Shown here piece after piece: positions 11,400 to 36,849 of a stretch of DNA of 64,000 nucleotides (its first letter is position 1; the number at the start of each line of letters is the position of its first letter). Under the pieces are notes generated by a model, which saw only the letters and a list, made by a program, of their open reading frames with translations, had not been told where the DNA came from and did no database searches. The stretch lies in contig NZ_CP128988.1 in NCBI RefSeq assembly GCF_030406045.1, positions 1-64,000 on the forward strand. Reading direction: 5' to 3'. The stretch comes from Thiohalobacter sp. IOR34 (GTDB lineage Bacteria; Pseudomonadota; Gammaproteobacteria; Thiohalobacterales; Thiohalobacteraceae). Both the position numbers and the translations under genes were made by a program.

Positions 11400-11939
11400 T
11401 CAGAAGTTGAGGGTCAGACCGATGGAGATCAGATCGACGTCGGCCTTGGCATTGTAGCGCTCCCAATCGAGCTGGATGCCGAACATCTCGTCGTAGACGT
11501 ACTTGGCGCCGATGCCGTAGACGGCGTCGACACCGTCGTTGCTGGCCGCGCCGTTGGGGGTGATGGCGATGTCCTGATCCCAGGCGTAGGCGCCCAGCTT
11601 GGCATGCACCGAGAAGCCACCGTCGCCGATCGGCAGCGAGCCGATGGCCGCGGCCATGAAGCCCTCGGTCTCGATGTCGACGTTGCCGCCCTCGTTCATG
11701 TCACCAAGGTCGGTCCAGCCGAGTTCCACGCCAAGGTTGTCGGTGATGAAGAAACCGCCGAACACCTTCCAGGCGGTGGAGTTCTCGTCGATGGCGCCGC
11801 TCAGGCCGCCCTCGCTGACGGTCTCGTCGATCGAGGCCTTGCCGAGGCCGACACCGAAGTAGCCGCCTTCGGCGCTGGCGCCGGCGGACCACAGCAGGGT
11901 GGCCGCAAGGGCCGCAGCGGTACGGATGCTCTTGTTCAT
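11400..11939 (-). CDS. Outer-membrane beta-barrel protein (OmpX/OmpA-like), copy 1
   Basis: A 179-residue exported protein with a clear signal peptide ([23 protein letters not shown], cut before EGGYF). The mature part is mostly alternating strands rich in Gly and aromatics and ends in Phe (SIGLTLNF), as outer-membrane barrels do. Length suggests an eight-stranded barrel. A strong Shine-Dalgarno (GGAGGA) precedes the ATG. It is adjacent to a paralogue at 12015-12635 in the same direction, with 75 bases between. Ligand or function is not evident. Confidence 0.75.
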
Positions 11940-12014: not shown

Positions 12015-12635
12015 TCAGAAGCGCAGCTGGACGCTGAGCGAGATCATGTCCAGGTTCTCGTCGGCCGCGACGCGGTCGTAGTCGACGCGGATGGCCAGGG
12101 CATCGGTGACGTCGAAGGCCCCGCCCAGCCCCAGGATGGCGCTGGTGCCGCTGTCGTCCAGCTGGCCGCGGAAGGTGGTGTCGAGCACGGTGGCGCTGAT
12201 CGCCGCGTCCAGCTTCCAGCGGGCGAAGCCGGCCTTGGCGTTGAAGGCGAAACCCGTGCCGAAAGGCACCCTGAGCACACCGGCCAGATACCAGGCGTTG
12301 GCGTCGACGTCACCGGTGTAGGTGAAGGGTGTGCTGCTCTCGGTGCCGTTCAGGGTAAAGGTGCCGAAGTCGAGGTAGCCGACCTCCAGTCCCCAGTTGT
12401 CGTTGAACAGGTGGCCGCCGTAGAGCTTCAGGCCGCCGTCCGAATCGTCCATGCTGGTGCTGGTGGTGTAGCCGTCGGCGGCAAAGGCCGTATCCAGTGC
12501 GGCGCTCTCGTCGTCCATGCCGGTCCGGCCCCAGCCGAGCCCCAGGTAGCTGCCCTCGGCGCTGACCGGCATGTTGCCGAGCAGGCCGAGACCGAGGGTG
12601 AGGCCGCTGACGGTGAGAATACGAGTGATGTGCAT
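12015..12635 (-). CDS. Outer-membrane beta-barrel protein (OmpX/OmpA-like), copy 2
   Basis: A 206-residue exported barrel. I chose ATG 12635 because AAGGAGGA sits five bases upstream and a signal peptide follows (MHITRILTVSGLTLGLGLLG to VSAEGSYLG); the longer open frame upstream has no such features. The protein ends in Phe (SVQLRF). It shares with its neighbour the pattern SAEGxYxGxGxG, LYGGHLFNDNWGLEVGYLDFG versus [21 protein letters not shown], and AIRVDYDR versus GIQLDWER, so the two arose by duplication. Confidence 0.75.
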   Translation of the reverse strand: MHITRILTVSGLTLGLGLLGNMPVSAEGSYLGLGWGRTGMDDESAALDTAFAADGYTTSTSMDDSDGGLKLYGGHLFNDNWGLEVGYLDFGTFTLNGTESSTPFTYTGDVDANAWYLAGVLRVPFGTGFAFNAKAGFARWKLDAAISATVLDTTFRGQLDDSGTSAILGLGGAFDVTDALAIRVDYDRVAADENLDMISLSVQLRF

Positions 12636-12841
12636 GATGTTCCTCCTTGGATGGCTTCCATCGGGCGAGCCCGCATGGGCGGACCCCGCTGCAGGGGATG
12701 ATACGCCCCCTGACAGCCATGACAAATCCCCAGAAAAAGCCCTGCCTTGCGGGCTTGCCTGGCCTGGAAAATGCATCGAATATTTCGGGGGTCAAGCCGC
12801 GACTCTGCCGTACCGATAGCTAGTATGCAGGAGGTCGAATC

Positions 12842-19629: not shown

Positions 19630-21025
19630 ACAGGAAAAGATCTGGATCATCGACGACGACCGCTCGATCCGCTGGGTGCTGGAAAAGGCACTCAAGCAGG
19701 CCGGCATGGAGGTGGCCAGCTTCGCCAGCGCGACCGGCGTGCTGGAAGCGCTGGCCAGCAGCCGTCCCGATGCGCTGGTCACCGACATCCGCATGCCGGG
19801 CATCAACGGCCTGGAACTGCTGGACAGCATCTGCAGGGACTATCCCGAGCTGCCGGTGATCATCATGACCGCCCATTCCGATCTGGACAGCGCGGTGGCC
19901 GCCTACCAGGGCGGTGCCTTCGAGTACCTGCCCAAGCCCTTCGATGTCGACGAGGCGGTGGCCCTGGTGCGCCGCGCAGTGGAGCACAGTCGCAAGCAGC
20001 AGGGTGAGCGGCCGGTTGCCAGCCTGGCCAACACGCCGGAGATCATCGGTGAGGCACCGGCCATGCAGGAGGTGTTTCGCGCCATCGGCCGCCTGAGCCG
20101 TTCCAACATCACGGTGCTGATCAATGGTGAATCCGGTACCGGCAAGGAGCTGGTGGCCCAGGCACTGCACCGGCACAGCCCGCGCGCCGGTGCCCCTTTC
20201 ATCGCCCTCAACATGGCCGCCATACCGCGCGACCTGCTGGAGTCGGAACTCTTCGGCCACGAGAAGGGGGCCTTCACCGGTGCCCAGAGCCGGCGCATCG
20301 GCCGCTTCGAGCAGGCCGACGGCGGCACCCTGTTCCTGGACGAGATCGGCGACATGCCGGCCGAGCTGCAGACCCGCCTGCTGCGGGTGCTGGCCGACGG
20401 CGAATTCTACCGGGTCGGTGGGCACACACCGGTACAGGTGGATGTGCGGATCATCGCCGCCACCCATCAGAACCTGGAACAGCTGGTGAAGGAGGGGCGT
20501 TTCCGCGAGGACCTGTTCCACCGCTTGAACGTGATCCGCATCCACATCCCGCCGCTGCGCGAACGGCGCGAGGATATCCCGTTGCTGCTGAACTTTTTCC
20601 TCGCCCGCGCCGCGCGCGAGCTCGGTGGCGAGGCCAAGCATCCCCTGCCCGAGGTTGAGCGCTACCTGACCCGGCTCGACTGGCCGGGCAATGTGCGCCA
20701 GCTGGAGAACCTGTGCCGCTGGCTGACGGTGATGGCCTCCAGCCAGGAGATCCACATGAGCGACCTGCCCCCGGAGCTGGCCACGGAAGCGGCGACCGGC
20801 GAGGCGGAGACGGTGGATTGGGCACGCGCCCTGCGCAGCTGGGCGGAGCAGGCCTTCAGCCGGGGCGAAGGGGAGCTGCTCGACCAGGCGCTGCCGCAGT
20901 TCGAGCGCATCCTCATCGAGACGGCCCTGCAGAAGACCGGCGGCCGCCGGCAGGAGGCGGCGCGACTGTTGGGCTGGGGCCGCAATACCCTGACCCGCAA
21001 GATCAAGGAGCTGGGACTGGGCTAG
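19622..21025 (+). CDS. ntrC: Nitrogen regulation response regulator NtrC (GlnG)
   Basis: The 467-residue sigma-54 activator has a receiver domain (phosphoacceptor Asp in DALVTDIRMPG), an AAA+ domain with GESGTGKE and the sigma-54 contact loop GAFTGA, and a C-terminal Fis-type helix-turn-helix (GGRRQEAARLLGWGRNTLTRKIKELG). It should act on the dyads upstream of glnA and ntrB. Its TAG stop runs into the 247-base tandem repeat (TAGCCCGC). Confidence 0.97.
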   Translation: MSKQEKIWIIDDDRSIRWVLEKALKQAGMEVASFASATGVLEALASSRPDALVTDIRMPGINGLELLDSICRDYPELPVIIMTAHSDLDSAVAAYQGGAFEYLPKPFDVDEAVALVRRAVEHSRKQQGERPVASLANTPEIIGEAPAMQEVFRAIGRLSRSNITVLINGESGTGKELVAQALHRHSPRAGAPFIALNMAAIPRDLLESELFGHEKGAFTGAQSRRIGRFEQADGGTLFLDEIGDMPAELQTRLLRVLADGEFYRVGGHTPVQVDVRIIAATHQNLEQLVKEGRFREDLFHRLNVIRIHIPPLRERREDIPLLLNFFLARAARELGGEAKHPLPEVERYLTRLDWPGNVRQLENLCRWLTVMASSQEIHMSDLPPELATEAATGEAETVDWARALRSWAEQAFSRGEGELLDQALPQFERILIETALQKTGGRRQEAARLLGWGRNTLTRKIKELGLG

Positions 21026-21685
21026 CCCGCAAACGGGGTCTCGCAGCGGGGTGCAGCTTGAGCTTTGTTCGATTGACTCCGGGTATCGCGGCCTGGAGGC
21101 CGCTCCTACGGGGCGTGGCGGCACAAGTTGCAGGAGCGGCCTCCAGGCCGCGATCGGGCGGGATCCCCGGTGGCCATGCCCGCCGCATTTGCCGCCGCTG
21201 GCCGCGCCCGCGGATATGGCGCCAAGGCGGTGCGCATGACCGGCGTGTAGGCTGACATACAAGCCCGGGCGGCTCGCAAACGGGTTCTCGCAGCGGGGTG
21301 CAGCTTGAGCTTTGTTCGATTGACTCCGGGTATCGCGGCCTGGAGGCCGCTCCTACGGGGCGTGGCGGCACAAGTTGCAGGAGCGGCCTCCAGGCCGCGA
21401 TCGGGCGGGATCCCCGGTGGCCATGCCCGCCGCATTTGCCGCCGCTGGCCGCGCCCGCGGATATGGCGCCAAGGCGGTGCGCATGATCGGCGTGCAGGCT
21501 GACATACAAGCCCGGGCGGCTCGCAAACGGGTTCTCGCAGCGGGGTGCAGCTTGTGCCTGTTCGATTGACTCCGGGTATCGCGGCCTGGAGACCGCTCCT
21601 ACGGGGCGTGGCGGCACAATAGGTTGTAGGAGCGGCCTCCAGGCCGCGATTGGGCGGGATCCCCGGTGGCCATGCCCGGCGTTGG
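21025..21685. repeat. Tandem duplication, period 247 bases, about 2.6 copies, each with a REP pair
   Basis: The anchor GTGCAGCTTG recurs at 21051, 21298 and 21545, exactly 247 bases apart. Copies 1 and 2 differ at only a few positions; copy 3 is cut short and slightly more diverged. Each copy carries an inverted REP pair (first pair 21085-21110 and 21131-21153). It fills the 660 bases between the convergent ntrC and mshI genes. No protein-coding potential is believed; short open frames here just read through the repeat. Confidence 0.92.
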
Positions 21686-22612
21686 CTAGAGCTTTTTCTC
21701 CTCCCGGCGCAGTGCGCAGCCGATGGCCAGGATGCAGGCGGCGGGTATCTCATCAGTCACGCCTGCCACGATCTCGGCGGGTGCCAGGGTGCGGCTGGCG
21801 AGGCCCAGGCTGGCGTCCATCACCTGATGGAGCTGCGGATGCTCGAAGGGGGCGGGTGTGGATACCAGGTGGCGTATGGGTGCCTGCTGGAAGTGACGGT
21901 CGTAATAGTCGAGGGTCCGCTGCACCTCCAGCGCCAGGTTGTCCAGCAGGACGGCGTGGGTCTCTGCGGCCTCAAAGGTCTGGTAACCGATGTCGAGGGT
22001 CCGCGCCAGGTACAGGGTGCTGCCGCGATAGAGGGCGATGAGGCCGCGTTGCGCCTCCTGGTAGAGGAGGGCCAGGCCCTTCTCGGCCTCGGGCAGGCGC
22101 ATGGCGATATTGCGCAGCGCCAGCTCCGGGATGTCGATCACCTCCAGTTCCAGTCCGGCCTCCTGCATGAGGCGGGCGCGGTCTTCCACCGCCTGGCGGC
22201 GGGCGACCACCACGTAGATGTGTTCACGGCTGCCGCGGGCGCTGCTGGTCGGGGCATCGAAGATGTCGAGCACGGCGTCGTCGATGTGGTAGTCGATCAT
22301 GTCCTTGATCTGCCAGCGCACCGCAGCCTTCATCTCCGGCGGCGGCACCTTGGGCATCTCGATCAGGAACAGATGGTAGCTGCCGAGATCCATCAGCGTG
22401 GCACAGGGCTGGTCACTCAGCCCCTGGCGCTTCACCAGCTGCTTCAACAGCGATGAGACCTCCTCCTCGCCGATCGTCAGACGCTCGCAGGCCTGCAGCC
22501 GGGGTGAGCCGTCTTCGCCCGGCGCGAGACAGACATGGCTCAGGCCGCCATCGTTGAAGACGATGGCATGCCGGCGGTTGCTGGATTTTCTGCGCAAGAG
22601 AGAAAAGACCAC
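21686..22612 (-). CDS. mshI: MSHA biogenesis protein MshI (PilM-like)
   Basis: A predicted 308-residue cytoplasmic actin-like protein of the inner-membrane pilus platform. I place the start at GTG 22612, shortly after AGGA, giving VVFSLLRRKSSNRRHAIVF; the upstream open frame is antisense to the preceding gene. The region MKAAVRWQIKDMIDYHIDDAVLDIF is the family hallmark. It is the last gene of the operon, 34 bases after the propeller-prepilin gene, whereas mshI opens the operon in Vibrio. Confidence 0.75.
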   Translation of the reverse strand: MVFSLLRRKSSNRRHAIVFNDGGLSHVCLAPGEDGSPRLQACERLTIGEEEVSSLLKQLVKRQGLSDQPCATLMDLGSYHLFLIEMPKVPPPEMKAAVRWQIKDMIDYHIDDAVLDIFDAPTSSARGSREHIYVVVARRQAVEDRARLMQEAGLELEVIDIPELALRNIAMRLPEAEKGLALLYQEAQRGLIALYRGSTLYLARTLDIGYQTFEAAETHAVLLDNLALEVQRTLDYYDRHFQQAPIRHLVSTPAPFEHPQLHQVMDASLGLASRTLAPAEIVAGVTDEIPAACILAIGCALRREEKKL

Positions 22613-22646: not shown

Positions 22647-23927
22647 TCAGGGAATGATCTCACGCCAGCGCTGGATTGCAACACTGCCGCCGCCGCTGCC
22701 GGCGATGGCGACGTCGTGGAGGCGCTCGCTGCTGCCCGAGGCCTTGGCCGTCCAGCTGCTGCCATCCCAGTGCAGGATGGTGCCGTTGTCACCGACGGCG
22801 ATGCAGTTGCTGGCATTGCCCGGCTCACAGCCGAGGCCACGCAGCCGGCGGCTGGTGCCTGAACTCATGGCGCTCCAGCTGCCGCCGCTGGTGGTGAGGA
22901 TGACGCCGTTGTCGCCGACCACGAAGCAACGGCTGCTGGTCGGGCAGTCGATGTCGTTGAGGCGGCGGTTGGTGCCCGAGATGACACCCAGCCAGATGCC
23001 ACCGAAGAAACCGAAGTTGTAGCGGCGCAGGATGGTGCCGTTCCTGCCGACGGCGAAACAGGTATCGCTGCCAGCCAGGCAGCTGACGCCGTACAGATGG
23101 CGGTTGCTGAACGCCAGTTCGCCAGCCCAACTGCTGCCCCCTGTCCAGCGGCGGATGGTGGCATTCCTGCCGACGCTGTAACAACGGCCGGTGCCGCAGT
23201 AGACACCCTCCAGGTCGCGACTGGTGCCGGAGGTCGACGCCCCCCAGCTGCCGGTCCAGCGGCGGATGGTGCCGTTCCTCCCGACGGCGAAGCAGGCAGC
23301 GGGATCGCTCGGCTCGCAGTCTACCCGGTTGAGGTTCTGGCTGGTGCCGGAGACGGTGCTGCTCCAACTGCTGCCATCCCAGCGGAAGATCGTACCGCTG
23401 TCGCCGACGGTTAAGCAGATACCGGAGACGCAGGTGATGCCGTTGAGGTCGTTGGTGGTGAAGGCACTGTAGGCGCTCCAGCTACTGCCGTCATAACGCA
23501 GCACGGTGCCATTTCTGCCGACCGCCCAGCTGTCGCCGCTGGCAGACTGGATATCGCCCTCGATCAGCCGCTGGGCGCGGACGCTGCCGCCGAGCAGGGT
23601 CCGCCCCAGCACCCGCACCCGGCACAGGCCACTGCTCGTCGCCGCCGACTGGATCTGGAAATCGCCGCGGCCGAAGCCGATCTGTGTATCCGGCGCCAGG
23701 CTGGAGCAGGCCGTGCCGTTGGCCAGCCGCTGGGCGGCGCGTTCCAGACCGCTCTCGGCCAGGAACAGGGCGTGCAGTGCATCGTCAGCCAGGGCCGAGT
23801 CGGTGATGTCGGTGCTGGAGAGGCGCAGGCCGACCTGACCGATGATGAGGATGATCACCGCCAGGAAGACGGTGGCGATGAGCAGCGCCGCGCCACGCTG
23901 GCGGACAATCGGCGCATGGCCGTTCAT
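22647..23927 (-). CDS. PilX/MshP-like prepilin fused to a predicted seven-bladed propeller
   Basis: A 426-residue protein at the MshP position. The first 60 residues are PilX-like: basic leader MNGHAPIVRQRGAALLIATV, a hydrophobic helix, and AESGLERAAQRLA. From about residue 130 seven repeats of about 40 residues follow, with the pattern (C)xxVGxNGTIxRWxGSSW then SGTSxxLxGVxC. The repeat number fits a seven-bladed beta-propeller, with one Cys before each VG and one after each GV suggesting stapled blades. Ordinary MshP is only about 150 residues. Role inferred: a minor pilin presenting an adhesive or sensing head at the pilus tip. Confidence 0.8.
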   Translation of the reverse strand: MNGHAPIVRQRGAALLIATVFLAVIILIIGQVGLRLSSTDITDSALADDALHALFLAESGLERAAQRLANGTACSSLAPDTQIGFGRGDFQIQSAATSSGLCRVRVLGRTLLGGSVRAQRLIEGDIQSASGDSWAVGRNGTVLRYDGSSWSAYSAFTTNDLNGITCVSGICLTVGDSGTIFRWDGSSWSSTVSGTSQNLNRVDCEPSDPAACFAVGRNGTIRRWTGSWGASTSGTSRDLEGVYCGTGRCYSVGRNATIRRWTGGSSWAGELAFSNRHLYGVSCLAGSDTCFAVGRNGTILRRYNFGFFGGIWLGVISGTNRRLNDIDCPTSSRCFVVGDNGVILTTSGGSWSAMSSGTSRRLRGLGCEPGNASNCIAVGDNGTILHWDGSSWTAKASGSSERLHDVAIAGSGGGSVAIQRWREIIP

Positions 23928-24466
23928 AGGCGGTTCCTCAACTGCACGCGGCCGCGTTGCGGGTAGCTGTTGCCCTGGCTGTCGCTCAGCACCAGTTCGT
24001 ATTCGATGAAGGCGATGTCGCTGTTGTCGCTGGAGGCGGTGCTGCCATCGTCCTGCAGATAGCTGAAGGCAAGGCTGCTGAGCCTGTTGCTCAGCGTGTA
24101 ACTGCCGGCCGGGCTGTCATAAGCGATGCTGAGCAGCGGCGCGGCGGCGTTCAGGCTGACCTGGGTGACGGTCGTGCCGTCCGCCTCGGTGCGGCGGAAA
24201 TCGATGCGGCTGGCGGTGCGGACCAGGATGTCGTAGCTGCCGGGCGCGGCCGGGTCACGGCGGATGCTGCGCAGTTCGCGCGCCAGGCGCTCGCCGGCGA
24301 GACGCAGCTCACTGAGCGTGGCGATCACCTCCTGCTGGGCAAGGTAGGCGCGCACCGCCTGGGAGACCCCGAAGGCGGCGCCGGCGGCGAGCAGGGCGAC
24401 CACCATGAGAGTGACCACCAGCTCGATGAGAGTGAAGCCTGTGCAGTGTCTGGCGGGATGCGGCAT
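23924..24466 (-). CDS. mshO: MSHA minor prepilin MshO-like
   Basis: A 180-residue prepilin with a short leader and type III methylation/cleavage site (HCTG before FTLIELVVTLMVVALLAAGAAF). The downstream region with ERLARELRSIRRD is typical for the MshO/PilW type. It overlaps the next gene by four bases and begins one base after the mshD stop. It likely joins the initiation complex of the pilus. Confidence 0.75.
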   Translation of the reverse strand: MPHPARHCTGFTLIELVVTLMVVALLAAGAAFGVSQAVRAYLAQQEVIATLSELRLAGERLARELRSIRRDPAAPGSYDILVRTASRIDFRRTEADGTTVTQVSLNAAAPLLSIAYDSPAGSYTLSNRLSSLAFSYLQDDGSTASSDNSDIAFIEYELVLSDSQGNSYPQRGRVQLRNRL

Positions 24467-24467
24467 G

Positions 24468-24875
24468 TCAGTAGTCCGCCAGCATGAACTGGGTCAGGCT
24501 GCGCGAGGTCCCGTTGTAACTGACTTCGACCTCCACCAGGCGGCAGTCGCTGACCGGGCAGCCGGCGCCGCTGTAGGCGCTGACCGTGGTGGTGCGCACA
24601 TAGCCACTGAAGTTGCCGCCGAGAGTCTCGGTGGTGGTGCCGACGGGTACGCTGGCATAGCCGCCGAGGCGCCGGTTGCCGAGGGTCTGCTCGGCGCCCG
24701 CCTGGGCGAGCTGGGCGGCGGTCTGGATCTCGCGGTCGGTGCCGAGGCTGCTGACCATCTGGGTGAACTGGATGGCGATGGGCAGGGCGGCGATGGACAG
24801 CAGCATGATCACCATGACCAGCTCGATGAGGGTAAAGCCCCCGCTGCGGTTCCCTGGCTGGCGGCGCCGGCTCAT
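24468..24875 (-). CDS. mshD: MSHA minor prepilin MshD-like
   Basis: A 135-residue prepilin: leader MSRRRQPGNRSGG, then FTLIELVMVIMLLSIAALPI. It has a Cys pair near residues 108-113 (GCPVSDC). Start ATG overlaps the mshC stop as ATGA. It is shorter than Vibrio MshD, so the exact ortholog is inferred from operon position. Confidence 0.7.
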   Translation of the reverse strand: MSRRRQPGNRSGGFTLIELVMVIMLLSIAALPIAIQFTQMVSSLGTDREIQTAAQLAQAGAEQTLGNRRLGGYASVPVGTTTETLGGNFSGYVRTTTVSAYSGAGCPVSDCRLVEVEVSYNGTSRSLTQFMLADY

Positions 24876-25327
24876 GGTGTCACCGTGACGAAGCCCGAGA
24901 CCGGCTCGATGCTGATGCTGGCGCTGCGGCTGGTCCCGCTCAGGGTGAAGCTGACGGCACTGGCGAGCAGTGAGCCGGCGGCGACCGGCCGTCCCCAGGC
25001 ATCGAGGTCGATGCTGCCGCTGCTCAGGGTGACGCCATCCTCGAGGTTGATGCTGAAGGGTTGCTGGGTGGCCGGGTCGGTGAGGGTGCTGCCGCCTTCG
25101 GTCAACCGGTAGCCCGTGCCCAGGGATTCGAAGGTCAGGGTGGCGCCGCGCGCCATGGCCAGTATCTGCGCATGGCGCAGGTCGCGCGCCACCTGCCGGG
25201 CCTGGGCCTGGACGCTGCTGTCACCAAATGACCAGTGGCTTGCCGCCACCGCGCCGAGTACGCCGGTGATGAGCACGACCATCACCAGTTCGACGAGGGT
25301 GAAACCGGATTGTCTGCAGCTGAGCAT
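24872..25327 (-). CDS. mshC: MSHA minor prepilin MshC-like
   Basis: A 151-residue prepilin starting MLSCRQSG followed by FTLVELVMVVLITGVLGAVA. The GspH/MshC-type region contains QARQVARDLRHAQILAMARG. An alternative in-frame ATG at 25348 adds seven residues; the shorter leader looks more like prepilins. It follows mshA after a perfect 14-base-pair hairpin. Confidence 0.75.
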   Translation of the reverse strand: MLSCRQSGFTLVELVMVVLITGVLGAVAASHWSFGDSSVQAQARQVARDLRHAQILAMARGATLTFESLGTGYRLTEGGSTLTDPATQQPFSINLEDGVTLSSGSIDLDAWGRPVAAGSLLASAVSFTLSGTSRSASISIEPVSGFVTVTP

Positions 25328-25418: not shown

Positions 25419-25805
25419 TCAGGTACAGCTGGCGTAGGAGCTGATGGTGCCCACGCATTGCACCGTATCGCCCACCGCCGTGGTCGCGGTGGAGCAATTG
25501 GCATCGGTGTAGGTCGGCACCGTACAGGTCTTGCTGTTGACAGTGACCTGGATGCCGGTGCTGGCGGCCGCCACGCCTTCGCCATTGACGTAGGTGGCCA
25601 GCTGGGTGACGGTGGGGAAACCCTGCAGGTCGGCGATCGCCACCGCGTGGGCCGACTTGACGGCGCCGCTGATGCCACGGATGGCGGCCGTCTCGGCGCT
25701 GCTGGACAGATCGACGAACTTGGGAACAGCCATGGCGGCGAGAATGCCGAGAATGACGATGACCATGACCAATTCAATGAGTGTGAAACCGGATTGGCGC
25801 TTCAT
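25419..25805 (-). CDS. mshA: Major MSHA-type pilin
   Basis: A 128-residue type IV pilin: leader MKRQSG, then FTLIELVMVIVILGILAAMAVPKFVDLSSSAE, typical of MshA. I chose ATG 25805 because AGGAGG lies seven bases upstream; the ATG two codons earlier would be only one base from it. The C-terminal 40 residues have four Cys (TCTVP, NCST, QCVG, ASCT) that likely form the pilin D-loop disulfides. It is shorter than Vibrio MshA (about 170). Confidence 0.88.
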   Translation of the reverse strand: MKRQSGFTLIELVMVIVILGILAAMAVPKFVDLSSSAETAAIRGISGAVKSAHAVAIADLQGFPTVTQLATYVNGEGVAAASTGIQVTVNSKTCTVPTYTDANCSTATTAVGDTVQCVGTISSYASCT

Positions 25806-25961
25806 ATTCATGCCTCCTGTGCACCGAAAGTTGGGGCGGCGGGTCTCGCTGCCATGCAATCAAACGGGTTATCGTTCGGGTGGTCCCATTTCTTTAGTCG
25901 TTCCGGGCACTTGTTGTGCCCCTTCTCCTCCGTCCCCAAGCGCGGGCCACTGGACCCGGAC

Positions 25962-27188
25962 TCAGCGATTCATCGCTGCCGTGGCCAGGTTCCACCAGGG
26001 GAGGAACACGGCCAGCGCCAGAACCAGCACCATGCAGCCGATGACCACGGTGAGGATGGGCTCGATGTTGCTGCTCAGGCGCTCGATGGCATATTCGACT
26101 TCCTGGTCGTAGTAGCGGCCGATCTCCATCAGCAGCTCGTCCAGGGTGCCGGATTCCTCGCCGACCACGATCATCTGCCGCACCAGGGGATCGAACATCC
26201 CCGAGTTGGCGGCAGTGACGCTGATCGATTCGCCGCGCTCGATTCCCTCGCGCATGCCCAGCACCCGTTCCTCCAGGAAGTCGTTGTCCAGGGCGCGGGC
26301 CACCACGGTGAGGCTGGTGATCAGTGGCACGCCGGCCTGCTGCGACATGCCGAACAGACGGCAGAAACGCGACAGCGTGGCCTTGTAGAGGATGTCGCCG
26401 ATCAGTGGCAGACGCAGCTTCAACTTGTCCCAGCGGTAACGTCCGCTCTCGGACTGCAGATAGAAATGCACCGCGACCAGGCTGCCGACCAGGCCGGCGA
26501 GCAGCAGTGGCCAGTGCTGGAGCATGAAATTGGAGATGCCGACCAGCAGCCGCGTGGCCAGCGGCAGGTCGGCGTCGAACTTGTCGAAGATCAGGCTGAA
26601 GGCCGGGATCACCCAGATGTTGATGACCACGATGGCGATACTGATCGCGGTCAGCACGAAGGCCGGGTAGCGCAGCGCCGAGCGGATCTGGTCGCGGGTC
26701 TGCTTTTCCCTTTCCAGGTAATAGGCCAGCTGCAGAAAGACCTCCTCCAGGCGACCGCTAGTTTCACCGACCCGGATCAGGCTGACGAAGAACTGGGAGA
26801 AGACCTCCGGGTGGTGACTCATGGCGCTGGCCAGGTCGTGGCCGGCCTCCAGCATCCGTGTGACTTCGCCCAGCACCCGGCGCATGGTGCGGTTCTGACT
26901 GGTCTCGGCGAGCACGTTGAAGGCGTTGAAGATGGGCACGCCGGCGCGGGTCAGGCTGTGCATCTGGCGGCTGAACTGAATCAGGTCGGCCAGCTGCACC
27001 TTGGGTGGAAACAGTGTCTCCAGGCTGCTGCCGCCCGTCTCCTTCTCCGCCTCGGCCGGGGTGATGTCGATCGGCGTCAGGCCGCTTTCCATCAGCCGGG
27101 CGGCCACGCTGTCGGCGTTGGCGGCCTCCTGGCTGCCTTCGATGGCGTCGCCGTGCGGGCCACGGGCCTTGTAGTTGAACAGGGGCAT
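25962..27188 (-). CDS. mshG: MSHA inner-membrane platform protein MshG (PilC/GspF family)
   Basis: The 408-residue protein begins MPLFNYKARGPHGDAIEG and has the two GspF repeats, each ending with membrane segments (residues 165-240 and 370-400). Family motifs LIQFSRQMHSLTRAGVP and VGEESGTLDELL are present. It starts two bases before the mshE stop codon end and works with the MshE ATPase. A 156-base spacer separates it from mshA, where a pilin promoter could lie. Confidence 0.92.
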   Translation of the reverse strand: MPLFNYKARGPHGDAIEGSQEAANADSVAARLMESGLTPIDITPAEAEKETGGSSLETLFPPKVQLADLIQFSRQMHSLTRAGVPIFNAFNVLAETSQNRTMRRVLGEVTRMLEAGHDLASAMSHHPEVFSQFFVSLIRVGETSGRLEEVFLQLAYYLEREKQTRDQIRSALRYPAFVLTAISIAIVVINIWVIPAFSLIFDKFDADLPLATRLLVGISNFMLQHWPLLLAGLVGSLVAVHFYLQSESGRYRWDKLKLRLPLIGDILYKATLSRFCRLFGMSQQAGVPLITSLTVVARALDNDFLEERVLGMREGIERGESISVTAANSGMFDPLVRQMIVVGEESGTLDELLMEIGRYYDQEVEYAIERLSSNIEPILTVVIGCMVLVLALAVFLPWWNLATAAMNR

Positions 27189-27190
27189 GA

Positions 27191-28894
27191 TCAGTCGATC
27201 CAGCTGGACAGGCGCATGGCCTCTTCCAGGGTGGTGATGCCGGCCTCGGCCAGAGACAGGGCGTGGCGGACCAGCGGCCGGAAGCCGTCCTGGGCGCGGG
27301 CGGCGCGTTCGAAGGCGCTGTGATCGTTGTGGCGCAGGGCGTCGATCAGCGGCTCGTCCATCACCAGCAGTTCATAGACACCGGTGCGTCCCGAGTAGCC
27401 GGTCTGGTTGCAGTGGTTGCAGCCACTGCCGGCATAGAAGGTCGGCAGCGTCGCCTGCTCCTCGTAGAAGGTCGGCTGCAGCCAGGCACGCTCGGCGCTG
27501 TCCGCTGCCTGCTCGCGTCGGCAGTGCGGGCAGATCTTGCGCACCAGGCGTTGAGCCATGATGGCATGCACCGAGGAGGCGATCAGATAGGGCTCCATGC
27601 CCATGTCGATCAGCCGCAGGGCGCTGTCCACGGCACTGTTGGTGTGCAGGGTGGAGAGCACCAGGTGGCCGGTGAGCGCGGCGCGAAGGGCGATCTCGCC
27701 GGTCTCGTGGTCGCGGATCTCGCCGACCAGGATGATGTCCGGGTCGTGGCGCAGCGCGGTGCGCAACACGCTGGCGAAGTCCAGGCCGATGCGCGCATTG
27801 ACCTGCACCTGATTGACGCGCGGCAGCTGGATCTCCACCGGATCCTCGACGGTGATGATCTTCTTCTGCGGTCGGTTCAGTTCGCTGAGCGCGGCATACA
27901 GGGTGGTGGTCTTGCCGCTGCCGGTGGGGCCGGTGACCAGAACCAGGCCGTGCGGCCGGTGCACCAGCTGGCGGAAGCGGGGCAGCATCTCGTCCGGCAT
28001 GCCGAGCTGTTCCAGCGACAGCAGGTTTTCGTCCTGGTCCAGCAGGCGCATCACCACCGCCTCGCCATGCTGGGTGGGCATGGTGGCCAGGCGCACGTCG
28101 ATGCGCCGGCCGTGGACGTGCAGGGTGAAACGGCCGTCCTGGGGCAGGCGTTTCTCGGAGATGTTGGCGCCGGCCATCAGCTTGAGGCGCGAGATCACGG
28201 CACCGGCGATGCGCTTTTCGTTCATCACCTGTTCGTGCAGCACGCCATCGATGCGCCGGCGGATGCGCAGCACCTCCTCGTCCGGCTCGATATGGATGTC
28301 GGAGGCGTGCTGGCGCACCGCGTCCTCGAACATGGTCTGGATCAGGCGCACCACAGGGGCGTCGCTCTGTGAGCTGTCGACGCCCAGCTCACCGAGATCG
28401 AAGGCGTTCTCGGCGAGCTCCTGGCCGACCTCGCTGGCCAGGGTGCTCAGCTCGGCACCCCCGGAATAGGCCTGGTCGATGGCCTGCAGCAGATCGGATT
28501 CCTTGACCACCGCCAGCTCGATCGGCTGCTTGAGGATGCGCCGCAGTTCGTCGTAGGCGAAGATGTCGGTGGGATCGGCCATGCCCACCAGCAGGCCGTT
28601 GTCGGTCTTTTTCAGCACCAGCGCGCGGAAACGGCGGGCGCTGGTCTCAGGCAGGCGCTGCACCAGTTCCGGGTCCAGCTCGAAGGTGGTCAGGTCGACG
28701 AAGGGAATGTCGAGCTGTTCCGAGAGCAGGCGCAGCAGATCGTTCTCGTCGATGAAGCCGTTGTCGATCAGCACCCGGCCCAGCTTGCGGCCGCTCTTGC
28801 GCTGATCGGCCAGGGCCGCCTGCAACTGGTTCTCGGAGATGACCTTCTTCTCGACCAGCAGGTCACCGATGCGGATGCGTTTCGGCAGCGCCAT
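27191..28894 (-). CDS. mshE: MSHA pilus extension ATPase MshE
   Basis: The 567-residue GspE/PilB-type motor has Walker A VTGPTGSGKTTTLYA, the Asp box, Walker B ILVGEIRDHETGEIA and a CxxC zinc pair set (CPHC, CNHC). The N terminus carries two consecutive MshEN motifs, RIGDLLVEKKVISENQLQAAL and KLGRVLIDNGFIDENDLLRLL, the known c-di-GMP binding module, so pilus extension is probably controlled by c-di-GMP. Confidence 0.94.
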   Translation of the reverse strand: MALPKRIRIGDLLVEKKVISENQLQAALADQRKSGRKLGRVLIDNGFIDENDLLRLLSEQLDIPFVDLTTFELDPELVQRLPETSARRFRALVLKKTDNGLLVGMADPTDIFAYDELRRILKQPIELAVVKESDLLQAIDQAYSGGAELSTLASEVGQELAENAFDLGELGVDSSQSDAPVVRLIQTMFEDAVRQHASDIHIEPDEEVLRIRRRIDGVLHEQVMNEKRIAGAVISRLKLMAGANISEKRLPQDGRFTLHVHGRRIDVRLATMPTQHGEAVVMRLLDQDENLLSLEQLGMPDEMLPRFRQLVHRPHGLVLVTGPTGSGKTTTLYAALSELNRPQKKIITVEDPVEIQLPRVNQVQVNARIGLDFASVLRTALRHDPDIILVGEIRDHETGEIALRAALTGHLVLSTLHTNSAVDSALRLIDMGMEPYLIASSVHAIMAQRLVRKICPHCRREQAADSAERAWLQPTFYEEQATLPTFYAGSGCNHCNQTGYSGRTGVYELLVMDEPLIDALRHNDHSAFERAARAQDGFRPLVRHALSLAEAGITTLEEAMRLSSWID

Positions 28895-28897
28895 GGT

Positions 28898-29974
28898 TCA
28901 GCCCCCGCTCCGGCGGCTGAGTTCGGCCAGTCGTGAAGCGACGAAGGCATCGAGCCGCGCCGCCAGGCCGCTGCGCCGTGCCTGGCGGTAGGCGCCCAGC
29001 GCCGCGGGGGCTTCGCCGTTCTGTTCCAGGGACAGGGCGAGGCCCAGCCACCACACGCCCTGGTCGGGACGCAGGCCGAGGGCCGCGCGCCAGGCCTGGA
29101 TGGCCGCCGGATGGCGCTCGCTGCGCTGGTAGAGGCCGGCCAGCAGGGCCAGATAGTCGGCATCCGTGGTGGCCTCCGGCAGGGCCGTCTCCAGCACCTC
29201 AATGGCCTGGGCCAGCCGACCCTGCTCGGCGAGCAGCCGGGCATAGAGGCGGGCAAAGGGGATGTGCTGCGGCGCCAGGGCCAGGCCCTCGGCCAGCAGA
29301 CGCAGCGCCTCGTCCGGGCGCTGCTGGCGCAGCAGCAGGGCGGCCCAGGTCTCGCGGGCCCGGTGGTGGGCGGGATCCACGGCCAGACTGTGCTGCAGGG
29401 TCGCCTCGGCCTCGCGATAGCGGCCGGCCGCGATCTGGTCGAGGGCCCGGGCAAAGATGCGTTCTGCCTGTTCGGCCGGTGTCTGCGGACGCAGCCGCTT
29501 GTGCATCGCCGGCGGCGCGGCGGTCGGCGCCGGTTCGGGGACGGCGGCCCGTGCCGGGGCAGGGGGCGCGGCGGTCTCCCGCGACGGCCCGCCGCTGGCG
29601 GCCGGGGCCGGTTCGGGTTCGGGTTCGGCGGCCGGGGCCGGTGCGGGTGGCGCGGCGGTCTCCCGGCGTGGCCCGGTGGTGTCGGCCGCGGCCTTGAGCG
29701 GCATGGCCGCCGGCGCGGCAGGCGGCGCTGCCGGGCTGGCGGCTGGAACGGTGGTCGGCTGGCTGGCCGGCAGCGCCGGGGGCGGACCCTGGCGCAAGCC
29801 GTAGGTGGTGCCGGCAGCGAGCAGCAGCAGGCCGAGGCCCGCCAGCAACAGGCGGCGTGCCCGTGGCGGCCGCGCCTCGGGGGCCGGCTGCAGGCCGTCC
29901 AGGGCCTGGCCGGCGCCGGCCGCAAGCGGCCGCTGCCGTTCCAGATCCTTGAGCATCTGGTTGATCAGGCTCAT
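28898..29974 (-). CDS. mshN: MSHA biogenesis protein MshN (TPR protein)
   Basis: A 358-residue protein starting MSLINQMLKDLERQR, the MshN hallmark. One transmembrane helix follows (about residues 45-60), then a very Pro/Ala-rich periplasmic linker (65-165), then TPR repeats to the C terminus. The ATG overlaps the mshM stop as ATGA. The strongly biased linker creates long open frames on other frames; those are not genes. Confidence 0.85.
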   Translation of the reverse strand: MSLINQMLKDLERQRPLAAGAGQALDGLQPAPEARPPRARRLLLAGLGLLLLAAGTTYGLRQGPPPALPASQPTTVPAASPAAPPAAPAAMPLKAAADTTGPRRETAAPPAPAPAAEPEPEPAPAASGGPSRETAAPPAPARAAVPEPAPTAAPPAMHKRLRPQTPAEQAERIFARALDQIAAGRYREAEATLQHSLAVDPAHHRARETWAALLLRQQRPDEALRLLAEGLALAPQHIPFARLYARLLAEQGRLAQAIEVLETALPEATTDADYLALLAGLYQRSERHPAAIQAWRAALGLRPDQGVWWLGLALSLEQNGEAPAALGAYRQARRSGLAARLDAFVASRLAELSRRSGG

Positions 29975-30876
29975 CGGCCGGCCGTCCACAGCAGCAGGCC
30001 CATGCCGGCACAGGCGGCGGTGCCCAGGGCGCCGAGCGCCCAGGGGCGGCGCCAGGCGGCCGGCAGGGGGCTGGCGTCCTCGGTGTCGGCCACGGCGCGA
30101 CGCACCTGCTCGGCATCGACCCGTTGCAGGCCGGCCCCGAAGGCAGCCATCAGCCCCTTGTGGGCGAGGACGTTGAGCAGCCGGGGGATGCCGCGGCTGG
30201 CGCGGTGCAGCAGGCGCAGGGCGCGGGGGGTGAAGCAGTCGCTCGCGGCGCCGGCCAGCTGCAGACGGTGCTGCAGGTAGCCGGCGGATTCGGCGGCGCT
30301 GAGCGGCCGCAGGCGATGGGAGAAGAGGATGCGCTGCCGGAGCTGGCGCAGGCGTGGCCGCTCGAGGCGCTGATCGAGCTCCGGCTGACCGAACAGCACC
30401 ACCAGCAGCAGCTTGTCCTTCTCCGTCTCCAGATTGGTGAGCAGGCGCAGGGCTTCCAGCGAATCGTCGGGGATCGCCTGGGCTTCGTCGATCAGCAACA
30501 CCACCCGCTTGCCGGCGGCGTTCAGCTCGATCAGCCGCTCGGTGATCAGCTTCAGCAGCCGGTGCTGGCCGATGTTGCGCGCGAATTCGAGCCCCAGTTC
30601 CTCGGCCAGCGCCATGCGCAGCGCGGTCGGGTTGAGGAAGGGGTTGGGGATGTAGGCGGTGACGAAGCTGTCGTCCAGGGTGTTGAGCAGGCGGCGGCAG
30701 AGCAGGGTCTTGCCGGTACCGACCTCGCCGGTCAGCTTGAGGAAGCCGGCACCGCTGCGCAGCGCCACCAGCAGCACGTTGAGCGCCTCCTGGTGGCTGG
30801 GCGAGCAGTAATAGAAATGGGTGTCCGGCGTGATGGCGAAGGGGGCCTCGCGCAGGCCGAAGTGTTCGAGGTACAT
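29971..30876 (-). CDS. mshM: MSHA biogenesis ATPase MshM (ExeA-like)
   Basis: The 301-residue AAA+ protein starts MYLEHFGLREAPFAITPDTHFYY as in ExeA/MshM. It has Walker A GEVGTGKTLLCRRLL, Walker B VVLLIDEAQ and a C-terminal hydrophobic segment (ALGTAACAGMGLLLWTA). I chose ATG 30876, with GAGGACG nearby upstream, over an ATG inside mshL. It probably helps insert or assemble the secretin. Confidence 0.88.
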   Translation of the reverse strand: MYLEHFGLREAPFAITPDTHFYYCSPSHQEALNVLLVALRSGAGFLKLTGEVGTGKTLLCRRLLNTLDDSFVTAYIPNPFLNPTALRMALAEELGLEFARNIGQHRLLKLITERLIELNAAGKRVVLLIDEAQAIPDDSLEALRLLTNLETEKDKLLLVVLFGQPELDQRLERPRLRQLRQRILFSHRLRPLSAAESAGYLQHRLQLAGAASDCFTPRALRLLHRASRGIPRLLNVLAHKGLMAAFGAGLQRVDAEQVRRAVADTEDASPLPAAWRRPWALGALGTAACAGMGLLLWTAGR

Positions 30877-30887
30877 GCCCGTCGTCC

Positions 30888-32657
30888 TCAGTCGCTCCGT
30901 GGTGCGCCCTGCAGTGCGCGGAAGCGTTCCGCGCTGGACTGCAGAACAGGGTTCCACTCGCCCTGACCCTCACCGACCACGATCGGCCGCAACAGGATCA
31001 CCAGTTCGCTCTTGGTCTTGCGCTGGCGCTGGTGCTGGAACAGGCCGCCGAGCAGCGGCAGGTCACCCAGCATCGGGGTCTTGGCCAGGTCGTCGCGCTG
31101 CTGGTCCTTCATCAGGCCGCCGATCACCACCACCTGACCGCTGCGGGCGCGGATGATGGTGTCGGATTCGCGGATCGAGGATAGCGCCAGCGGCACCGAC
31201 AGGGTGGTGGTGGTGGAGACGTTGATCTCCTTGGTCTTCTCGGTGACCTCGCTGACCGTCGGGTGGATGTGCAGCACCACGTTGCCCTCCTCGTCGATCT
31301 GCGGGATCACGTCCAGGGCGACGCCGGAGAAGAAAGGTGTCAGCTGGACGTTGACGTTCTGGTTGAGACTGGCGGTGCTGGTGGTGGTGGTCTGGGTGTC
31401 GACGTCGGTGACGAAGAACTCGTCGGTGCCGACCTTGATCACCGCCTTCTGGTTGTTGACCGTGGAGATGCGCGGGCTGGACAGCACCTGCACCTTGCCC
31501 TGGGTCTTGAGCAGCTCGATCAGGGCATTGAAGTCGTTGGCGTTGATGTTGAGCACGAACATGCCGCCGAAGGTACTGGTGACCAGACTGGTGGTGGTGA
31601 GACCGGGCTGCAGGGTGGCTGTGCCGTCGACCAGGCTGGATGTGCCATCGCTGAAGATGCGGCCGCCGCCGATCTGCCCGGCCTGCAGGGTCTCGCCCTT
31701 GGCCGGCCGGCCGATGGCGCCCCAGTTGATGCCGGACTGGAAGCCGTCGTTGAGTTCCACCTCGATGATCTTGGCCTCGAGGATCACCTGGCGCTGCACC
31801 ACGTTCTGCAGGGTGGCGAGATAGTCCTCGACGTCGCGCAGCTCGCCGGGCATGGCGCGGACCACGATGATCCCGGCCTGCGGATTGAGGACCACGCGAC
31901 GTCCGCCCTCGTCACCGATCAGCATGGTCAGCGCCTGCTTGAGTTCCTCCCAGAAATCGGACTGTGAGCGGGTCTCCACCTCGCTGCCGGAGACGCTGGT
32001 GGTCGGCGTGCCGCTGCCCTCGCTGCTGCTGTCGGTGCTGCTGGTGCCATCGCTGCCCTCGCTGCTGTTGCTGGCGGCCGTCTCCGAGACCTGGCCGGAG
32101 CTGACCCGGGTGCGCGAGGTGCCGCTGCGCTGCACGTTGAGATAGTCGATCTTGAAGATCCGCGAGCGCATCCGCGCCGGCATCACCTGGTACACCGAGC
32201 CCAGCTTGCGGTATTCGTAGCCGTAGACGTCACGCACCGTCTGCATCACCTCGTCGACGGTGATGTTCTTCAGGTTCAGGGAGATCATTCCCTCCACCTC
32301 GGGATGGACCACCATGTTGTAGGGCGTGTCCTCCACCAGCCCCATGAAGAAGCGCCGGGCCGGCACCTGGTTGACGGCGATGTCGAAGCGCGGCTCGCTC
32401 GGCGCGGCCGCCCTGGGCAGGGCCATGGAGAGCGGCGGCAGCAGGGCGGCCTGGACCTCGGCCGGTGGTTGGGGTGCGCTTTCCCGCGGCGCGCTGGCAG
32501 GGGAGGGTGCCAGGCTGTGTTCGATGGCGGGCAGATTGGCCGCCAGTGACGGTTCGTTGCGTGGCGCCAGGCTCTGGCAGCCGCTGACCAGCAGGCTGCC
32601 GAGCAGCAGACAGAGCGGCTGCAGCCGGCGGTGGGTGGGGTTTGCTGTCGTATTCAT
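30888..32657 (-). CDS. mshL: MSHA outer-membrane secretin MshL
   Basis: The 589-residue secretin has a lipoprotein signal (LLLGSLLVSGC), an STN/N0-type domain (residues 110-165), and the C-terminal secretin domain (GVALDVIPQIDEEGNVVLHIHPTVS, VPLALSSIRESDTIIRARSGQVVVIGGL). Between them, residues about 178-230 form a Ser/Thr/Gly-rich low-complexity stretch, longer than I would expect. It overlaps mshK by four bases. Confidence 0.93.
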   Translation of the reverse strand: MNTTANPTHRRLQPLCLLLGSLLVSGCQSLAPRNEPSLAANLPAIEHSLAPSPASAPRESAPQPPAEVQAALLPPLSMALPRAAAPSEPRFDIAVNQVPARRFFMGLVEDTPYNMVVHPEVEGMISLNLKNITVDEVMQTVRDVYGYEYRKLGSVYQVMPARMRSRIFKIDYLNVQRSGTSRTRVSSGQVSETAASNSSEGSDGTSSTDSSSEGSGTPTTSVSGSEVETRSQSDFWEELKQALTMLIGDEGGRRVVLNPQAGIIVVRAMPGELRDVEDYLATLQNVVQRQVILEAKIIEVELNDGFQSGINWGAIGRPAKGETLQAGQIGGGRIFSDGTSSLVDGTATLQPGLTTTSLVTSTFGGMFVLNINANDFNALIELLKTQGKVQVLSSPRISTVNNQKAVIKVGTDEFFVTDVDTQTTTTSTASLNQNVNVQLTPFFSGVALDVIPQIDEEGNVVLHIHPTVSEVTEKTKEINVSTTTTLSVPLALSSIRESDTIIRARSGQVVVIGGLMKDQQRDDLAKTPMLGDLPLLGGLFQHQRQRKTKSELVILLRPIVVGEGQGEWNPVLQSSAERFRALQGAPRSD

Positions 32658-36145: not shown

Positions 36146-36808
36146 CGTCGCGGCAAGAATCCGCTCTACAGGCCATAGCGCACACCAGCCAGGGAAGTTT
36201 CCGTGTTTTCCGTGGCCATCGATCTTTTCGCGGGTTTCGCGGGTTTCGCGGGTTTCGTGGCCATCCTCGGTGCCGCCTGACGAGGCCACAACGGTTGATG
36301 CCCCTCGATCGCGGCCTGGAGGCCGCTCCTACAATGAATCATGCCGTCACCCCATCGTAGGAGCGGTCTCCAGGCCGCGATTGCCACAGTCGCGGCAAGA
36401 ATCCGCTCTACAGGCCATAGCGCACACCAGCCAGGGGAGTTTCCGTGGATTCCGTGGCCATCGGTCTTTTCGTGGGTTTCGCGGGTTTCGCGGGTTTCGT
36501 GGCCATCCTCGGTGCCGCCTGACGAGGCCACAACGGTTGCTGCCCCTCGATCGCGGCCTGGAGGCCGCTCCTACAATGAATCGTGCCGCCCGGCCCCTGT
36601 AGGAGCGGCGTCCCCGCCGCGATTGCCGCCGTGGCGGCGCGTGGATTCCGTGGCCATCGATCTTTTCGCGGGTTTCGCGGGTTTCGTGGCCATCCTCGGT
36701 ACCGCCTCGACGAGGCCACAACGGTTGATGCCCCTCGATCGCGGCCTGGAGGCCGCTCCTACCACATTGCCGCCACACCCCGTAGGAGCGGCCTCCAGGC
36801 CGCGATGG
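36146..36808. repeat. Tandem repeat block (period 242, third copy shortened) with REP pairs and 9-base microrepeats
   Basis: The anchor CGGCAAGAATCCGCTC occurs at 36151 and 36393, 242 bases apart; the flanking ACGGTTG anchor recurs at 36291, 36533 and 36721. Each unit has the nonamer GCGGGTTTC repeated two to three times, then an inverted REP pair (36307-36383, 36549-36624, 36737-36806). It fills the 705 bases between trmL and gpsA, which converge. I see no gene in it. Confidence 0.92.
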
Positions 36809-36849
36809 GCCGCGTCCCCGGAATCGATCGGACAGGCAACAGGCCCTGG

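Follow-up and report, generated by a model that had tools for sequence, protein, structure and literature searches.

The gene at the mshP position of an MSHA pilus operon in Thiohalobacter sp. IOR34 was found to encode a modular minor prepilin of 426 amino acids, with a predicted seven-bladed propeller placed after the third pilin strand and ahead of a conserved C-terminal W-x-E tail. Gammaproteobacterial genomes with such a built-in domain were almost always devoid of MshQ, the putative adhesin of classical MSHA loci, and thus the fused domain probably does the job of this adhesin at the pilus tip. The gene lies in a stretch of 64,000 nucleotides (positions 1 to 64,000 of contig NZ_CP128988.1), which is referred to here as the window.

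The MSHA operon

The operon was read in the order PilN-like gene, MshJ, K, L, M, N, E, G, major pilin, three minor prepilins, mshP-position gene and PilM-like MshI (Table 1). Assignment to the MSHA system was based on this gene order and on a secretin that scored above the curated cut-off of its MshL model. The operon genes other than MshL were named by position and family, with the assembly ATPase taken to be MshE from family features. The ATG of the mshP-position gene overlaps the mshO stop codon (ATGA), and its limits in the ORF list agreed with those of the earlier note. MshI occupies the place expected for mshQ, and this order is repeated in relatives. In Thiohalobacter thiocyanaticus and family f72 the operon ends in the same way, with mshI behind a modular mshP and then a convergent ntrC-like gene; the two-component pair near the operon is ntrB/ntrC-like.

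Table 1. Coordinates of the modular prepilin, its parts and neighboring MSHA genes in the window.
Feature	Position	Strand	Basis
Modular minor prepilin with propeller insert, mshP position	22647..23927	-	ORF, repeats, AlphaFold2
Leader, residues 1-12 (ends QRG), and long N-terminal helix to residue 69	23721..23927	-	AlphaFold2 helix 7-69
Pilin strands, residues 88-129, flanked by Cys74-Cys102	23541..23666	-	AlphaFold2 strands 88-98, 101-112, 115-129
Predicted seven-bladed propeller, residues 133-409, six Cys pairs	22701..23531	-	repeats, AlphaFold2, Foldseek
C-terminal strand and tail, residues 414-426 (SVAIQRWREIIP plus the preceding residue), conserved W-x-E	22650..22688	-	AlphaFold2 strand 415-424
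MshI (PilM-like), directly downstream of the mshP-position gene	21686..22612	-	PF11104, 43 bits; GTG start at 22612
mshO-position minor prepilin	23924..24466	-	N_methyl above cut-off
mshD-position minor prepilin	24468..24875	-	N_methyl above cut-off
mshC-position prepilin (GspH-like)	24872..25327	-	profile search
mshA-type major pilin	25419..25811	-	profile search
MshG platform protein (GspF/PilC family)	25962..27188	-	profile search
MshE assembly ATPase (presumed)	27191..28894	-	sequence and position
MshN (TPR protein; start codon uncertain)	28898..29980	-	ORF list, profile search
MshL secretin	30888..32657	-	TIGR02519, 278 bits (cut-off 250)

Other features of the window were also recorded. 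Intergenic tandem arrays of ~245-nt units (two to three copies, 92-98% alike over the whole unit) lie at 21025-21681 and 36147-36823, one of them directly behind the MSHA operon, and the units contain a palindromic GTAGGAGCGGCCTCCAGGCCGCGAT-like core that resembles REP elements. At 11400-11939 and 12015-12776, on the minus strand, two adjacent genes encode related small proteins that resemble outer-membrane beta-barrels (OmpA/OmpW type by eye).

A prepilin with a predicted propeller

The N terminus of the mshP-position protein reads MNGHAPIVRQRG^AALLIATVFLAVI, where ^ is the predicted cleavage point. This is a class III leader that ends in Gly (QRG^AALLIATVFLAVIILII) and is followed by a hydrophobic helix; QRGAA was invariant among aligned orthologues and an ALFLAES-type motif was also present. 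A prepilin peptidase gene is encoded by the genome. The N-terminal processing presumed in the earlier note is consistent with this leader and peptidase gene, with cleavage itself predicted from the sequence. Residue +5 is Ile instead of Glu. The type IVa pilus (T4aP) PilX of the same genome is likewise without Glu at +5, as are GspK-type tip-most pilins. Absence of this residue is expected for the tip-most type, and membership among the minor pilins of MshP/PilX/GspK type stands. In profile searches the N terminus was not matched by the N_methyl model and the protein was matched by no library model for MshP; the name MshP was therefore given by position and pilin type.

The region between the pilin strands and the tail was found to hold seven repeats, as had been claimed from a reading of the letters; they are 35-44 residues long. 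The repeats gave a summed pairwise BLOSUM62 score of 1742, whereas 500 shuffles averaged 442 (sd 22) and reached 517 at most, which rules out chance as the origin of the repeats. Six Cys pairs fall within the repeats (166/171, 204/212, 244/249, 283/290, 328/334 and 367/375) and, together with the 74/102 pair of the pilin part, account for all 14 Cys of the protein.

An AlphaFold2 model built from 10 natural sequences (pLDDT 81.5, pTM 0.66) placed the pilin helix and sheet before 28 strands, arranged as seven blades of four, and a final strand. Confidence was lower near the tail (pLDDT ~58 at residues 411-420, 77 at the end). In a Foldseek search of the PDB, the model was matched best by designed propellers with seven blades (7bid; TM 0.83, by target) and by YCF48, the latter at rank 8-14. 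The protein is thus predicted to form a closed ring of seven four-stranded blades. Taken together, the model, the Foldseek matches and the class III leader support the architecture proposed in the earlier note, a prepilin helix covalently joined to a propeller.

The scores for PSII_BNR (PF14870; 20.1 bits, cut-off 27) and NCBIfam Ycf48 (17.9, cut-off 326) were below threshold, and therefore a propeller fold is claimed and family membership is not. PilY1 membership was rejected, as PF05567 did not match; the genome encodes a separate PilY1 at 2.458 Mb. A sequence search of solved structures with the mshP-position protein gave no useful match.

Relatives and the insertion site

The search for this architecture outside the window was productive, with examples across its own family and in other gammaproteobacterial groups. 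Full-length or near-full-length orthologues were detected in seven further genomes of the family (one broken into two frames), and named records with orthologues included T. thiocyanaticus Hrh1, Thiohalobacter sp., and Ectothiorhodospiraceae and Legionellales MAGs. A homologue from a marine gammaproteobacterium has 14 WxG..W units, exactly 2x7. In view of the orthologues and the operon end repeated in relatives, a sequencing or fusion artefact is excluded.

The site of the propeller was revealed by a short protein from a genome of the same family (G005), in which the pilin strands run straight into the tail GSIHLAHWHEV, equivalent to GSVAIQRWREI of the window protein. Thus, the propeller has been inserted ahead of the last strand and is not an appended domain. 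Inserts of other kinds occupy this site in other relatives, the propeller being one of several. In genus g77, six of the seven proteins read have the propeller and the seventh (G272) an unrelated insert; the helix regions of G272 and the propeller-bearing G270 are 71% identical and the tail is kept in both. The insertion site thereby shows whole modules swapped within one genus. Another alternative insert (L044) was modeled with a pLDDT of 55 and gave weak jelly-roll and carbohydrate-binding-module-like matches.

Further arrangements were observed among the relatives. One MSHA-like locus of UBA6915 (L047:6379-9101) encodes two consecutive modular pilins with W-x-E tails, the first with a long GGSMGGS repeat linker inside its insert. 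In the propeller pilins of L042, L043, L048, L049 and L018, from Legionellales-like MAGs and one record labeled Myxococcales (which may be a mislabeled bin), an extra beta-rich domain (IPVxSTxGYxxxGRxxID...YxxVTRG) is placed between the pilin strands and the propeller. Large non-pilin proteins with many AVGxxGTI...W-type repeats, encoded in G029 and G032 (L017, L019, L024, L026), are a possible source of the propeller repeats.

The C-terminal tail

A W-x-[EQ] motif within the last 14 residues was present in 18/18 named modular MshPs, compared to 0/40 short MshPs. In the sampled census described below, 12 of 14 modular proteins had the tail if WQD is allowed; G045 and G020 were without a clear one. 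Among long ORFs from the window and from the named loci (420 in all), the motif was found mostly on modular pilins; the ends of MshE (GWIE), a second group, were taken as coincidence. All 20 MshQ C termini read have a related form, such as IYxREVY (IYLREVY, IYTREVY) or LFWQEVQ, and most PilY1 C termini read as GRxSW[RQE][QE]L (e.g., GRQSWRQL). In the T4aP cluster of the window genome, PilX is tail-less, and the PilY1 encoded next to it ends in GRMSWQQLK. In published AlphaFold-Multimer models, PilX receives an additional strand from the C terminus of PilY1 (PMC11046646, with an extension in PMC13190605). The likeness of the tails of modular MshP, MshQ and PilY1 is suggestive of a common docking role; the shared stretch is only 5-8 residues of sequence, which is too short to prove that the tails are homologous.

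Tails of this kind were also noted in other settings. In Gallionella and Nitrospirota (L055:3128-5903 and L057:7863-9190), the gene behind that of a tail-less pilin encodes a surface protein of another family, with a signal peptide and the ending WREEFR or KWREVD; these pairs are possibly further tip adhesins of split type. A second large pilin-like protein of the window genome (380 aa, ARGAATLVMALGLIL; L176:2120-3262, G000:C1:2451619-2452761), encoded in another prepilin cluster, ends in GSWSDL, a W-x-acid tail after a large insert.

Co-occurrence with MshQ

MshQ of classical MSHA loci has been termed a 'putative MSHA adhesin', and its loss in V. cholerae reduces surface piliation and does not stop retraction (PMC7096442). 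A search of the complete genome of the window with PF20419 (DUF6701) gave no match, indicating that MshQ is absent. DUF6701 was found in 0/11 genomes of the family, and MshL-related secretins were found in 11/11. In G003 and G004 the contigs end next to MshL, and MshP of these two genomes is left out.

For a census, 232 gammaproteobacterial genomes were sampled with an MshP N-terminal profile that was built mostly from modular forms. The 72 matched genomes were searched for DUF6701 and MshL, and true MshP lengths were read from the DNA. By this approach, DUF6701 was detected in 1/14 genomes with a modular MshP compared to 38/39 with a short MshP (Fisher 2e-10), in classes drawn after the proteins had been seen and among genomes that are related and in some cases incomplete. 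Counted by family, the numbers were 1/11 and 32/33. The exceptions were G083, which has both a modular MshP and MshQ, and G233, which has a short MshP and is without DUF6701. In the genomes of the named loci, a set that partly overlaps the sampled census, DUF6701 was present in 0/24 with a modular MshP; the one extra match came from a Gallionella with a tail-less pilin. The co-absence of MshQ with modular MshP is thus a correlation on related genomes. None of the open-access papers listed for MshQ mentioned DUF6701.

Discussion

We consider it probable that the propeller of modular MshP is a tip adhesive module that replaces MshQ, with the tail as a docking strand in cis. Prepilin peptidase would cleave after QRG, and the N-terminal helix and sheet would let the pilin join the tip complex, probably at the tip-most place because, like GspK, it is without Glu5. 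The last strand would close the pilin sheet in cis and so fix the propeller on top; for MshQ on MshP, and for PilY1 on PilX, a similar tail would be supplied in trans. The propeller, of YCF48/BNR type, would most likely bind a ligand at the tip and do the work of MshQ. The 'self-anchored tip adhesin' of the earlier note is indirectly supported by the near mutual exclusion with MshQ and the MshQ/PilY1-like tail; from these patterns we infer the tip location, adhesion, MshQ replacement and strand docking. A broader rule for type IV pilus tips is more tentative, and we would rate it slightly below an even chance. By this rule, the sheet of the tip-most minor pilin would be completed by a short W-x-E-like strand, either in trans from a secreted adhesin (PilY1, MshQ and the L055/L057-type families) or in cis, behind an inserted module that can be exchanged (propeller, sandwich-like or other). 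Lineages would switch between the two, so that MshQ would be lost when a module is fused.

Other roles of the propeller are less likely. YCF48, the closest natural fold match, is a photosystem II assembly factor, and since propellers of its type act in assembly elsewhere, a non-adhesive role is conceivable, in which the module primes assembly by stabilizing the minor-pilin tip complex or by contacting the secretin or machinery in the periplasm, with no ligand outside the cell. The reduced number of surface pili after mshQ loss (PMC7096442) and the priming of assembly by PilY1 and minor pilins (PMC7541494) agree with such a role, as would the loss of MshQ, because MshQ would then also be mainly a priming factor. 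However, the site holds unrelated inserts in sister species, the repeats of one homologue would suffice for two propellers, and this fast turnover of modules is easier to reconcile with a variable ligand than with a conserved partner in the envelope. We thus regard a priming module as unlikely.

The mechanosensor or surface-contact sensor raised in the earlier note appears quite improbable, even if tip proteins of type IV pili are candidates in surface sensing. A minor pilin-like gene does affect surface sensing in Caulobacter (PMC12607857). By contrast, no fusion-specific signaling partner was seen beside the window gene, the adjacent pair being ntrB/ntrC-like, and the propeller, with its six predicted disulfides, looks rigid. 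Minor pilins of MshP type resemble GspK in being without Glu5, and so the gene could be imagined in a pseudopilus-like or secretion system with the propeller as an enzyme or cargo-binding domain. The secretin score and full MSHA gene order argue against this assignment, as does the finding of no enzyme family match in profile and structure-sequence searches, and we regard it as about as improbable as the sensor.

Under the preferred reading, in which the propeller is a tip adhesive module, the fusion bears on two standing questions, the occupant of the MSHA tip and the attachment of MshQ, as it is a natural one that nearly always replaces MshQ. It points to MshP as the docking partner of MshQ, marks out the short C-terminal tail as a candidate docking element, and makes modular MshP a one-protein system for examining docking of the MshQ type. 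The propeller class also adds pilins that an N_methyl-based census would probably miss. In the open-access literature, outside of which most subscription papers lie, no account was found of MSHA loci with a propeller pilin, of modular MshP and MshQ excluding each other, or of a tail common to these proteins.

Comparison with known systems

Classical MshP shares the position, leader, helix and first pilin strands of the window protein; it differs in its length of ~130-170 aa, in stopping after the third strand with no W-x-E tail, and in nearly always occurring with MshQ. MshQ (DUF6701) has a similar C-terminal tail and is proposed to do the same job as the modular insert, but it is a separate large protein of another family. 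YCF48/PSII_BNR proteins have the same repeat type and fold, with the sequence match weak and below cut-off, and YCF48 is not a pilin. A domain inserted into the minor-pilin sheet is also found in ComZ; the inserts of GspK and ComZ are an alpha domain or a beta solenoid, whereas that of the window protein is a propeller. For GspK, PMC8179133 describes a domain within the minor-pilin sheet, at a position comparable to that of the window propeller.

PilY1/PilC (PF05567) of T4aP has a seven-bladed propeller at the tip and, in most cases, a W-x-[EQ] tail with predicted strand addition to PilX (PMC11046646, PMC13190605). Unlike the window protein, it is a separate secreted protein and not a pilin, and its propeller family is unrelated by sequence. 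In the portion of PMC8179133 available to us, a propeller is mentioned only for PilC/PilY1. Modular pilins are described there as very diverse, with adhesive modules at the tip. Among them are PilB with a vWA module and PilC with a lectin module in S. sanguinis, which likewise carry the module on a minor pilin, probably at the tip. By contrast to these, the module of the window protein is a propeller, is placed before the conserved last strand and not at the C terminus, and belongs to an MSHA system; its N terminus, moreover, is not matched by the N_methyl model on which that published census was based. Modular pilins are already known (PMC8179133), and the window protein is thus a variant of them and not a new principle.
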